Shown here piece by piece: positions 1 to 8,541 of a DNA stretch of 25,808 nucleotides. The notes under the pieces are model-generated. The model saw only the letters and a list, made by a program, of their open reading frames with translations. It was not told the DNA's origin and made no database searches. The DNA comes from a virus. The stretch's first letter is position 1. Each line of letters begins with the position of its first letter. The translations under genes and the position numbers were made by a program. The stretch is taken from positions 1 to 25,808 of the IMG/VR virus record IMGVR_UViG_3300030119_000984; one strand, given 5' to 3'.

Positions 1-588
1 ATGGCAAGACGCGGACGGCCTCGCAAATCAGGTAAGCGCACAGCAAGCGGGCGCCTCAAAGCCCAGCCTGTGACATTCGACAAGGGCACCGAGCGCACAC
101 AGGACAAGTTTAGCGTTTATGGCGCAGATGGGTCCGACGCTATCGGCAGGGCCTACGTCATGGGACTCCTGGGGGCAGACGGCAGCGGCCATCCGACGAG
201 CGAGGCGCTTGACCTGCGCAACCTCGCCCGCAAGATACACCGCGCCTACTGGCCCATGCTGGCGGTGGGGCGTGAAAAGTCCTGCCTTGGCCTCGACATC
301 AACGGGCAGGCGGTGAACGATAACCTGCTCGACCCCGAAGAGCGCGAATACAAGATCAGGCGCGAGAAACGGCTGACGGACACCCTGCGAGCGGTGGAGC
401 GCATGTCCCGCCAGCACCGCAAAGCATTCGATGACCTGTGCATTGAGATACACCCTGACAGCGGACCTGCATGGCTGGACGGACTTATCTGGGCCAAGAC
501 GCACAGCAAGCCGGTTGATCCTGCCCATAAGCAGGCGATGGCGCGGGCAATTGAGGCGCTGGAACAAATCGGGCCTAAATGGGGATAG
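1..588 (+). CDS. Hypothetical basic phage protein with AT-hook-like N-terminus
   Basis: I do not recognise this 195-residue protein. The first 20 residues are strongly basic and contain RRGRPRKSGKR, which resembles an AT-hook (GRP core flanked by Arg/Lys), so DNA contact is possible. The rest is a soluble, charged, probably helical domain with a basic stretch around residues 115-145 (EEREYKIRREKRL and following) and no membrane segment or Cys cluster. The window begins exactly at the ATG, so no ribosome binding site can be judged and the true start could lie further upstream. It lies before the non-coding RNA block and packaging genes, a position where some phages carry late regulators; that role is only a guess. 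Composition matches the neighbouring genes. Confidence 0.7.
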   Translation: MARRGRPRKSGKRTASGRLKAQPVTFDKGTERTQDKFSVYGADGSDAIGRAYVMGLLGADGSGHPTSEALDLRNLARKIHRAYWPMLAVGREKSCLGLDINGQAVNDNLLDPEEREYKIRREKRLTDTLRAVERMSRQHRKAFDDLCIEIHPDSGPAWLDGLIWAKTHSKPVDPAHKQAMARAIEALEQIGPKWG

Positions 589-614: not shown

Positions 615-643
615 TTGACCACCGCCTAAAAAGCTGCTATGCG
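615..643 (+). promoter_or_regulatory. Candidate sigma70-type promoter of the RNA block
   Basis: TTGACC (615-620), a 17-base spacer and TATGCG (638-643). TG two bases upstream of TATGCG gives an extended -10 (TGCTATGCG). Transcription would start near 650, ahead of the tRNA-like segments and the terminator at 908-940. The -35 hexamer and spacer length are the same as at 1903-1875 (minus) and 2633-2661. The -10 match is weak (3 of 6). Confidence 0.4.
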
Positions 644-682
644 CGTAAATGATATTCGGAATTGTGCCTATTGCCCGTTAGG

Positions 683-773
683 TGTGAGGCGCAACCGAAA
701 CGAGATTGCTGCGGCGGCGCGCCGTGGCTCCGATAAGCCAGAGGTCGGCGGTTCGAATCCGCCCCTCCCGACG
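683..773 (+). tRNA. tRNA-like segment with canonical T-arm, aberrant anticodon arm
   Basis: The T-arm is perfect: GGCGG (747-751), loop TTCGAAT, CCGCC (759-763). It is followed by CCTCCCG (764-770), which pairs with TGTGAGG (683-689) except for one mismatch, giving a 91-base class II-like layout. GCAA (691-694) and TTGC (706-709) can form a D-stem. Then TGCGG/CCGTG (710-714/722-726) can form a wobble-rich anticodon stem, and TGGCT/AGCCA (726-730/737-741, roughly) a long variable arm. The putative anticodon loop CGGCGCG lacks U33, the D-loop lacks the usual GG, and no CCA follows. It is either a degenerate tRNA, a tRNA 3' half fused to other sequence, or a tRNA mimic. The T-arm is certain; a functional tRNA is not. 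Confidence 0.4.
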
Positions 774-782
774 ATAGCCAAT

Positions 783-828
783 GCGGAGTTAGCTCGAACC
801 GGTGTAGGGCGACACAATGCTGCGGTGA
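783..828 (+). other. tRNA 5'-half-like segment
   Basis: GCGGAGT (acceptor-like, 783-789), TA, then D-stem GCTC (792-795) with an 11-base loop containing GG, and GGGC (807-810). The next bases can form only a partial anticodon stem (CAC/GTG with T then GCT in the loop). No T-arm or matching 3' acceptor follows before the next tRNA-like segment starts at 837. It is best read as a tRNA remnant or half; chance resemblance is possible. Confidence 0.25.
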
Positions 829-836
829 CAATAGGG

Positions 837-907
837 ATCAAGGTAGCTCAGCTGGATAGAGCGCTGGCACATTGCATTCGAGGTCGCTCCTGAACAGCGA
901 TTTCGTA
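837..907 (+). tRNA. tRNA-like segment with canonical D-arm, no TTC T-loop
   Basis: The D-arm is textbook: TA (844-845), GCTC (846-849), loop AGCTGGATA, GAGC (859-862). A perfect TCGCT/AGCGA stem (884-888/896-900) with a 7-base loop CCTGAAC sits where a T-arm should be, but the loop is not TTCRANY. The anticodon region (863-883) is two bases short and forms no good stem, and ATCAAGG (837-843) does not pair with the expected 3' acceptor. The length (71) is tRNA-like. It ends directly at terminator 908-940. It is likely a decayed tRNA or a tRNA-derived RNA; not accepted as functional. Confidence 0.35.
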
Positions 908-940
908 GGGGCTGAGGGTTGGCGCTCTCAGCCCCTTTCT
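908..940 (+). terminator. Rho-independent terminator of the tRNA-like block
   Basis: Perfect 9-bp stem GGGGCTGAG (908-916) and CTCAGCCCC (927-935), a 10-base loop, then TTTCT. It directly follows the last tRNA-like segment, so it closes a unit running from the candidate promoter at 615-643. Confidence 0.8.
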
Positions 941-943
941 ATT

Positions 944-1030
944 GGCCAGCGTCGCAACGACAAGGCCGGCCCGCACCTCGAAAAGCACCGATCACGGACC
1001 CTAGTGGGATAGCGTTGGTAGCGGGCAAAC
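944..1030 (+). repeat. Imperfect direct repeat, copy 1
   Basis: Copy 1 shares ordered blocks with 1229-1320: GGCCAGCGTC, CGACAAGGCC, CCCGCACCTC, GAAAAGCA and finally GTTGGTAGCGGGCAAA. The spacing between the last two blocks differs slightly between copies. It lies between two + strand terminators, so it may be part of a separate short transcript ending at 1097. Its function is unknown. Confidence 0.6.
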
Positions 1031-1060
1031 ATCCCCCCGGTAAGTTTCGACGAACCGGAA

Positions 1061-1097
1061 AAGGGGGCCAAGCTGCGGCTAGCCCTCTTATTTTTTT
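1061..1097 (+). terminator. Rho-independent terminator with seven T
   Basis: AAGGGGG (1061-1067) pairs with CCCTCTT (1083-1089). An internal loop follows, then AGC/GCT closing a TGCG loop (1071-1080). After the stem come A and seven T (1091-1097). A smaller inverted repeat CCGGT/ACCGG (1037-1041/1054-1058) lies just upstream. No gene on the + strand precedes it after the terminator at 940, which implies a short non-coding transcript between the two. Confidence 0.7.
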
Positions 1098-1228
1098 GTC
1101 CAACGCTTGCGGCGCTCGCCCTGCCTCATATGGCCGGAGTAGCGACCGGCCCGCAGCATGCCAACATCCGCCCCGTGGAGTAGGCCCACCGACGAACTGG
1201 TGATGCCGAAACGCGGGGCTTTTGCTCA
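1098..1228. other. Gene-free stretch with an inverted repeat
   Basis: I see no credible gene here on either strand. It holds a perfect 6-bp inverted repeat GGCCGG/CCGGCC (1132-1137/1146-1151) with an 8-base loop, flanked by ATG..CAT, which could be a hairpin or a protein-binding site. The minus-strand operon that ends at 1321 would be transcribed into this stretch; no strong terminator is visible for it. Confidence 0.35.
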
Positions 1229-1320
1229 GGCCAGCGTCCATTGCGACAAGGCCCGTCCCGCACCTCCGAAAGCATAGCAAGCCGATGAGCATTATCTGGC
1301 AGGGTTGGTTGCGGGCAAAA
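1229..1320 (+). repeat. Imperfect direct repeat, copy 2
   Basis: Second copy of the repeat at 944-1030, with the same block order (GGCCAGCGTC, GCGACAAGGCC, CCCGCACCTC, GAAAGCA, GTTGGTTGCGGGCAAA). It ends exactly at the stop codon of the minus-strand gene at 1321, so the repeat is also the 3' flank of that operon. Unlike copy 1 it is not followed by a T-run terminator on the + strand. Confidence 0.6.
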
Positions 1321-1467
1321 TTAAGAGCGATGCTTGCGAACGCGGGCAAGGGTAAGGAGCCGCTTGCGTTCGGCCTTTAGGGGCTTGGCTTTCGCTTCCA
1401 ATTCGGCAAGCGCCGCCTCGATCCTGTCAAGGTGGCGGTGCTCGTCGGGGGTTAGGTGGTCAGTCAC
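1321..1467 (-). CDS. Small coiled-coil-like hypothetical protein
   Basis: A 48-residue protein reading VTDHLTPDEHRHLDRIEAAL at its N-terminus, followed by a Lys/Arg/Glu-rich amphipathic helix with regular Leu/Ala spacing and a basic C-terminus ending ARVRKHRS. It is probably one long helix that dimerises. It starts at GTG, and its first bases overlap the end of the preceding gene by 8 bases, so translation is likely coupled. It is the last gene of the three-gene minus-strand operon. I do not recognise the family. The overlap pattern is the main support, because an ORF this short could occur by chance. Confidence 0.55.
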   Translation of the reverse strand: MTDHLTPDEHRHLDRIEAALAELEAKAKPLKAERKRLLTLARVRKHRS

Positions 1468-7300: not shown

Positions 7301-7314
7301 CAAGGAAATACCAC

Positions 7315-8541
7315 ATGACGACTGAAACGAAGTCGGTTGCGGAAGTCGCAGCCGAAACCAAGAAGCTGTTCGAAGAACGTTTCGACAACCTCAAGGCTCT
7401 GGCCGAAGAAGCTGTCGGCAAGGCGGACAACGGCGAAAAGCTGTCCAACTCCATCAAGGAACTGGCTGACCAGGCGCTGACCGGCGTTAACGAAGCCAAG
7501 AGCCGCATGGACGAAATGGAACAGAAGATGGAAGCGCGCATGAAGCGTGCCCATTCGGAAGCCAAGTCGCTCGGCGCACAGGTTCTGGAGAACGATGGCG
7601 TCAAGGCCATGATGGCTGCTGGCAAGGGCCGCGTGTCGGTCGATGTGGACAGCAAGGCGATTATCTCGGGCCTGACCACCGATGCCAATGGCTCTGCTGG
7701 CGATCTGGTTGTCGAGCAGCGCGTGGGCCTCGTCCCCGGCGTTGAGCGCCGCCTGACCATCCGCGATCTGCTGATGCCGGGTCGGACTTCGAGTTCCTCG
7801 ATCCAGTATCCGAAGGAAACCGGCTTCACGAACTCGGCTGACACCCACACGGAAACCGCTGGCACCGCCAAGCCGCAGTCGGAACTCAAGTTCGACCTTG
7901 TTACGTCGAACGTGACCACGATTGCCCACTGGGTTCAGGCAACGCGCCAGATCCTCGATGACGCTCCGATGCTTCAGAGCTACATCGACGGACGCCTTCG
8001 CTACGGCCTTAAGCTGGTCGAAGAAGATCAGCTTCTGAACGGCGGCGGCACCGGCACCGATCTGAACGGCATCTACACGCAGGCGACCGCCTCGACGGCC
8101 AATCTTGCCGTTGTGGACGCGCCCACGAAGATCGACGTTCTGCGCTACGCCATGCTCCAGGCTTCGCTTGCCGAGTTCCCGGCAAACGGTGTGGTTATCA
8201 ACCCTATCGACTGGGCGGGCATCGAAACCGAGAAGGATACCGCTGGTGCCTACATCATCGGTAACCCGCAGGACTCGGCTCAGCCGCGCATCTGGGGACT
8301 TCCGGTGGTCGCTACGCAGGCGATGACGGTGGACAAGTTCCTCGTCGGTTCGTTCGGCATGGGCGCGCAGATTTTCGACCGCAGCGATGCGAGCGTGGAA
8401 ATCTCGACCGAGGACAGCGACAACTTCCGCAAGAACCTTGTGACGATCCTGTGCGAAGAGCGTCTTGCTCTCGCCGTGTATCGCCCCGAGGCCTTCGTGA
8501 AGGGCGACTTCTCGGATCAGATTACCGATCTGACCTCGTAA
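7315..8541 (+). CDS. Major capsid protein (HK97 fold)
   Basis: Builds the icosahedral shell. 408 residues. Residues 1 to ~104 are a Lys/Glu/Ala-rich coiled coil matching the delta (scaffold) domain of HK97 gp5, which the protease removes. From about 125 the mature domain begins (DANGSAGDLVVEQRVG), with RLTIRDLLMPGRTSSSSIQY, the E-loop stretch, ATRQILDDAPMLQSYIDGRL, NGVVINPIDWAGIE, IWGLPVVATQAM and a C-terminal TILCEERLALAVYRPEAF. AAGGA lies upstream of the ATG. A terminator follows within 10 bases. Codon use is somewhat richer in C-ending preferred codons than in its neighbours, as expected for a highly expressed gene. Confidence 0.95.
   Translation: MTTETKSVAEVAAETKKLFEERFDNLKALAEEAVGKADNGEKLSNSIKELADQALTGVNEAKSRMDEMEQKMEARMKRAHSEAKSLGAQVLENDGVKAMMAAGKGRVSVDVDSKAIISGLTTDANGSAGDLVVEQRVGLVPGVERRLTIRDLLMPGRTSSSSIQYPKETGFTNSADTHTETAGTAKPQSELKFDLVTSNVTTIAHWVQATRQILDDAPMLQSYIDGRLRYGLKLVEEDQLLNGGGTGTDLNGIYTQATASTANLAVVDAPTKIDVLRYAMLQASLAEFPANGVVINPIDWAGIETEKDTAGAYIIGNPQDSAQPRIWGLPVVATQAMTVDKFLVGSFGMGAQIFDRSDASVEISTEDSDNFRKNLVTILCEERLALAVYRPEAFVKGDFSDQITDLTS

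Follow-up and report, generated by a model that had tools for sequence, protein, structure and literature searches.

A putative late-operon leader RNA with an exchangeable, permuted tRNA-like domain in an HK97-type phage

The window analyzed here is a 25.8-kb linear virus record from an HK97-type phage, whose TerL shares 63% identity with its counterpart in phage HK022. On balance, we read positions 615 to 940 as the leader unit of a late operon, of the lambda pR'-tR'/StxS type, which carries an exchangeable Y-RNA-like domain in the form of a permuted tRNA. What the sequence itself presents is a conserved promoter and hairpin, a characteristic position, an interior that is swapped among relatives, and T- and D-arms that are not random; from these we infer transcription, antitermination, the in vivo fold, and a function.

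RESULTS

The unit lies 3' of replication and methylase genes and of a gene of about 200 amino acids without a family, and 5' of HNH, terminase, and portal genes; in the window, a block of minus-strand genes (about 1330 to 1850) separates it from the late genes. The features discussed below are collected in Table 1. The ORF at positions 1 to 588 gave no match to a known family, and its AlphaFold model was poor, with no usable fold; we treat a Q-like antiterminator role for its product as an unproven candidate only.

Table 1. Features in and around the proposed leader unit (L numbers denote the loci used for comparison)
Feature	Positions	Strand	Details
195-aa ORF upstream of the promoter	1-588	+	Late-regulator position; homologues in L002 (91% identity), L003 (91%), L004 (88%), and L005 (73%)
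Sigma70-type promoter	615-643	+	TTGACC 615-620, 17-nt spacer, TATGCG 638-643; layout kept in L002, L004, L097, L098, and L047
5' leader hairpin	655-699	+	TTCGG AA TTGTGCC (19-nt loop) GGCGCAA CCGAA; from folding; covarying equivalents in L097, L098, L047, L019, L020, L053, and L023
Invariant stretch GTTAGGTGTGAGGCGCAACCGAAACGAGATTG	676-708	+	Common to the window, L004, L097, and L098; one change in L002
Closing stem of the variable interior, 5' strand	701-711	+	Pairs with 895-905; pair probability 0.998
3'-half of the tRNA-like domain	737-763	+	GCCAG (tRNA positions 39-43), AGGTC, perfect T-arm 747-763 (pair probability 0.97)
Acceptor-like stem	764-843	+	CCTCCC 764-769 with GGG 834-836, ATCA bulge, AGG 841-843; about 64 nt in the loop, corresponding to an insertion in the YrlA alignment
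5'-half of the tRNA-like domain	844-868	+	TA, perfect D-arm 846-862, G26, CTGGC (tRNA positions 27-31) pairing with 737-741
3' strand of the closing stem	895-905	+	Pairs with 701-711; from folding
Terminator-like hairpin and T-tract	907-944	+	Hairpin 907-936, 13 pairs (8 GC); modest T-tract TTTCTATT
Post-terminator structured module, copy A	944-1032	+	From alignment and a search with model R1
Second unit (B), without leader	1090-1225	+	CTTGCGG..CCCGCAGCATGCC; terminator-like hairpin CCCCGTGG..ACGCGGGGCTTTT; same hairpin in L098
Post-terminator module, copy B	1229-1322	+	From the model R1 search

The promoter proposed in a first-pass annotation of this DNA was verified, and its layout recurs in relatives. 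A strict sigma70 scan of the window did not call it, because the -10 element lacks the final T. Sequence comparison found TTGACN-17-TATGNG followed by GTTAGGTGTGAGGCGCAACCGAAACGAGATTG in L002-L004, L097, and L098 (with one change in L002), the last two loci having been identified by way of a downstream module; the form TTGACN-17-TATGNN is the promoter type of the relatives and is sited 5' of late genes. Over the whole locus set (855 kb), the pattern TTGACN-17-TATG.. occurs seven times on the forward strand and once on the reverse. When followed by GA[AG]TTG[CT]G, the promoter was found on the terL strand only, with 0 reverse matches and with the complementary arm present in most cases. Among the wider TerL relatives (L019, L020, L022, L023, L045, L047, and L053), the promoter is followed by GA[AG]TTGCG on the late-gene strand, never on the reverse. 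In eight leaders the 5' arm of the hairpin starts 40 to 49 nt after the -35 element, and the stem has changed on both sides, an outer G-C pair being replaced by A-T and an inner C-G pair by T-A; the 5' strand reads TTGTGCC in the window, TTGCGCC in L097 and L098, and TTGCGTCC, paired with GGACGCAA, in L047. The invariant stretch GTTAGGTGTGAGGCGCAACCGAAACGAGATTG is confined to a handful of relatives, and scans of genome contigs with the DNA pattern and with the ORF at 1 to 588 returned no matches. Because the promoter spacing and the 5' hairpin are conserved across relatives, the earlier proposal of a dedicated transcription unit is supported, with transcription itself predicted.

A short ORF running across the leader (MRVNDIRNCAYC...) was rejected as a gene, as the reading frame is not kept in L097 and L098, which do retain the RNA hairpin. 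The leaders of L002 and L004 contain a further hairpin of about 45 nt between AGATTGC direct repeats, absent from the window, L097, and L098; it resembles a small mobile insertion.

Between these flanks the interior is exchanged. The window and L004 are 100% identical over positions 634 to 709 (76 nt) and then unrelated, and the homologues replace the tRNA-like segment of the window entirely: the interior of L098 is a tRNA-Met (ARAGORN; 60 bits in Rfam), that of L004 a piece of 16S rRNA helix 11 (nt 237 to 283; E value, 1.3e-5) with many matches in plasmid records, and that of L002 a separate RNA hairpin, CCCGCTCTGCTTCGGCATCGGGCTT, each flanked by conserved sequence. The near-exact 16S rRNA piece of L004 (7703-7749) sits between GCTGCGG and CCGCAGC. 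Since the 5' flank is identical to that of L004 while the interior is wholly different, the tRNA parts of the window entered as a block, already fragmentary.

The first-pass annotation had described three tRNA-like segments, of which two are real. Its perfect T-arm (747 to 763) and perfect D-arm (844 to 862) were both verified, and rule-based scans of 832 kb of related loci, on both strands, confirm that they lie far from chance: the T-arm rule matched the window and five other places (four ARAGORN tRNAs and one likely chance match), and the D-arm rule matched nothing beyond the window and one intact tRNA-Arg, in L047. The middle segment, a supposed 5'-half at about 784 to 830, matched no rule or family used. 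The two remaining segments are complementary. In tRNA numbering, 737 to 769 corresponds to positions 39 to 71 and 841 to 868 to positions 5 to 31; positions 27 to 31 (CTGGC) and 39 to 43 (GCCAG) are fully complementary (5/5), and in the acceptor parts CCTCCC pairs with GGG-[ATCA]-AGG, giving 6 bp and a 4-nt bulge. Because the anticodon-stem and acceptor parts pair, the order is that of the 3' half followed by the 5' half of one tRNA-type fold, and the two arms are best read as a single permuted tRNA-like domain: T-arm, acceptor-like stem, and D-arm, closed by GCCAG/CTGGC. This arrangement, together with the 76-nt flank shared with L004, disfavors the idea of three tRNAs decaying slowly in place.

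A complete cloverleaf was sought in the window with a tRNA finder and covariance models; ARAGORN reported 0 tRNAs, RF00005 gave no match at its gathering score, and the same held for every other Rfam family. Both arms, T and D, are intact, in contrast to the broken acceptor and anticodon parts. As first noted, there is no CCA; segment 1 does carry a poor anticodon-like arm, TGGC-TCCGATAA-GCCA, with an 8-nt loop that includes GAT. The 3' half resembles a tRNA-Ile(GAU) encoded by Salicola phage SCTP-2, with 91% identity across 35 nt, and 24 nt of the D-arm part match an Azospirillum tRNA-Arg(CCG) without a difference. Constrained to the permuted form, the RNA folds into a long irregular stem that ends in a tRNA-like head, at 2.5 kcal/mol (730 to 870) or 6.7 kcal/mol (699 to 906) above the minimum; unconstrained, the D-arm and the outer stem are unpaired (pair probabilities of 0.007 and 0.003, in a calculation that models no tertiary contacts). 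Among the loci compared, the permuted interior has no copy in relatives; it occurs in the window only and hence is without covariation support.

Fragments of tRNA 3' halves that begin near the anticodon loop typically serve as attP cores, and several phage matches of the 3'-half fragment are unannotated single copies, as might be expected if the 3' half were the remnant of an attachment site. We consider this most improbable. The site heads a late operon, the 3' half is followed by a separate 5' half, the relatives carry different inserts at this position, and no integrase was identified nearby (the window's ORFs having been scanned in part against the family library). An att site was rejected as being in the wrong place.

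The best Rfam match over the domain is the bacterial Y RNA family YrlA (RF02553), with 26.0 bits, an E value of 0.0033, and coverage of model positions 23 to 85; the gathering score is 69 bits, so the match falls below threshold. An alignment with checked coordinates places the permuted module (T-arm, acceptor-like stem, D-arm, closing stem) as it is found in YrlA, and the two share this order, the anticodon-like closing stem, and a long end stem. However, the window differs in its subthreshold score, in the large insertion in the acceptor loop, and in being embedded in a longer late-leader RNA. The YrlA model also matches weakly in 12 to 13 of the 14 genomes used as controls, where tandem tRNA genes are presumably the cause, so a YrlA match alone proves nothing. 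The records of L002-L005, L096-L098, L110, L115, and others yielded no TROVE/Ro60 gene; these records are fragments, and the ORFs of the window were scanned in part. Because the score lies below the threshold and the relatives' records yielded no Ro60 gene, we do not claim YrlA membership. A true YrlA RNA, acting with a Ro60/Rsr protein encoded by the host or by a missing portion of the phage, is in our view improbable. It would agree with the rank of RF02553 as top match, with the stem and tRNA-like head of the constrained fold, with published Y RNAs of phages (PMC12282133), and with YrlA-like matches in L115 (26 bits; E value, 5e-5) and in the phage of L110 (44.6 bits), but it is opposed by the distance from the gathering score, by the roughly 64 nt inserted in the acceptor loop, by the lack of a TROVE/Ro60 match in the records searched, and by close relatives that lack the interior.

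The unit ends in a terminator-like hairpin, for which the first-pass annotation had given a 9-bp stem. The hairpin exists, its stem is longer, and its T-tract is only modest; terminator-like hairpins are found in L002, L045, and L097 as well. Beyond it lies a structured module of about 90 nt (GGCCAGCG..CCCGCACCTC..GTTGGTNGCGGGC), present in the window directly 3' of both terminators and, in L002, L004, L096, and L098, 5' of the ribosome-binding site of the next gene. A search with model R1 of this module found no copies outside the known lineage. The terminator-like hairpin at 1166 to 1224 shows a weak, subthreshold likeness to Staphylococcus aureus TEG147 (33 bits) and is near-identical in L098; TEG147, mir-6794, and other subthreshold Rfam matches were set aside as mere resemblance.

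The 25-nt hairpin from the interior of L002 (CCCGCTCTGCTTCGGCATCGGGCTT; UUCG loop; L002:10849-10876) is not present in the window. It was noted at L002, L104, L105, and L107-L131; 27 viral stretches have it exactly, and two plasmids, one phage-like from Endozoicomonas and one from Sphingomonas, have it with near-exact sequence, in each case 3' of very different genes. For L002 and L104, the two loci compared with Rfam, there was no match, and the sequence is not printed in any paper of the literature searched; by these comparisons it is a widespread, uncatalogued phage hairpin. In L105, L107, L113, L125, and L126, the hairpin RNA has its own promoter (TTGACN-17-TA....), which overlaps the end of an upstream ORF; that of L105 is annotated as a PemK/MazF-family toxin and the other four look similar, so that ORF and hairpin RNA may form a toxin-RNA pair. 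Two of the loci with the hairpin also carry unusual tRNA-like folds. In L115, a tRNA-Met and the hairpin are followed by an intact permuted tRNA-like RNA (reverse strand, near 7310 to 7390) with a 9-bp outer stem, T-arm, capped acceptor stem, and D-arm, which is its own minimum-energy fold. In L118, a tRNA-like RNA that has acceptor, D-, and T-arms and lacks the anticodon arm lies 3' of the hairpin (reverse strand, near 1400 to 1500).

A tentative alternative to a working domain, one with an appreciable chance of being right, is that the interior is a functionless passenger: a piece of host tRNA DNA, comprising halves of one tRNA type or of two neighbors, would have recombined into a tolerant gap between leader and terminator, and the leader would work anyway. 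The 16S rRNA piece of L004 and the whole tRNA of L098 at the same site point to recurrent capture of host stable RNA, the weak YrlA matches of ordinary genomes fit as well, and the permuted order is just what would be expected of a fragment that runs from the end of one tRNA into the beginning of its neighbor. Against this, the two halves are mutually complementary in both the anticodon and the acceptor stems, which is rare for unrelated neighbors, the T- and D-arms are perfect, and the domains of L115 and L118 occur in other phage noncoding RNAs.

It had also been suggested that the segments are tRNA mimics made on purpose. The intact arms and the odd folds of L115 and L118 are compatible with mimicry; nothing links the domain of the window to a nuclease or a processing enzyme. 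Phage tRNAs counteract tRNA-cutting defenses (PMC11555353), and YrlA has been proposed to inhibit an anticodon nuclease by competition (PMC7790460), which, with an intact elbow beside a broken anticodon, could fit a decoy or inhibitor RNA that either keeps anticodon nucleases away from host tRNAs or ties up enzymes of tRNA processing or modification. Yet an RNA without an anticodon loop cannot mimic most anticodon-nuclease targets, no associated counterdefense gene was identified, and the interior differs between relatives; we regard such a decoy as quite improbable.

DISCUSSION

In the late-leader reading that we prefer, a sigma70 promoter behind the gene in the regulator position would make an RNA of about 290 nt, consisting of the conserved 5' hairpin, the closed variable domain, and the terminator, with the late genes (HNH, terminase, and portal) beyond. 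Transcription would end at 907 to 944, and overcoming this termination would open the way to the late genes. The variable domain, probably acquired as a block, would hold one circularly permuted tRNA-like fold, in which a long imperfect stem is capped by T-arm, acceptor-like stem, and D-arm in the layout of a YrlA-type Y RNA. Its intact T/D elbow probably stabilizes the leader RNA or engages elbow-binding host proteins. Points against this reading are the weak T-tract, the minus-strand gene block ahead of the late genes, and the unpaired D-arm and outer stem of the unconstrained fold.

In Stx phages, the pR'-tR' region is transcribed and terminated during lysogeny, and the product is processed to the small RNA StxS (PMC7873438; PMC8065619), an example of pR'-tR' transcripts that can act as functional small RNAs (PMC7873438). 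The window shares with these systems a promoter behind a regulator gene, a short RNA, a terminator, and late genes next in order, and published work describes the interval from Q to the late genes as diverse (PMC8065619, PMC7873438, PMC6266700). Unlike them, the window has no recognized Q homologue, a different 5' hairpin, an interior that carries tRNA or rRNA pieces, and a second structured module 3' of the terminator. With phage-encoded tRNA genes it has in common the exact T-arm and D-arm consensus, and the sister unit in L098 contains a tRNA-Met; it differs from them in having no linear-order cloverleaf, no usable anticodon loop, and no CCA.

A broader proposal, which we offer as a rather unlikely speculation, is that late leaders are exchangeable platforms, in which a fixed promoter, 5' hairpin, and terminator surround a slot for mimics of host stable RNAs (a permuted Y-RNA-like tRNA, a whole tRNA, 16S helix 11) whose targets in trans, during lysogeny, would be RNA-binding proteins of the host, nucleases, or ribosome assembly. 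For HK97-type phages of this group, the promoter followed by a GARTTGCG hairpin 40 to 49 nt after the -35 element would serve as a signature of late promoters. If the late-leader reading is right, what looks like a tRNA graveyard is the leader RNA of a late operon, with a domain that can be exchanged; such leaders would be sites where structures resembling tRNA and rRNA are gained by phages again and again, and the occurrence of permuted tRNA-like domains would extend beyond the Y RNAs linked to Ro60.
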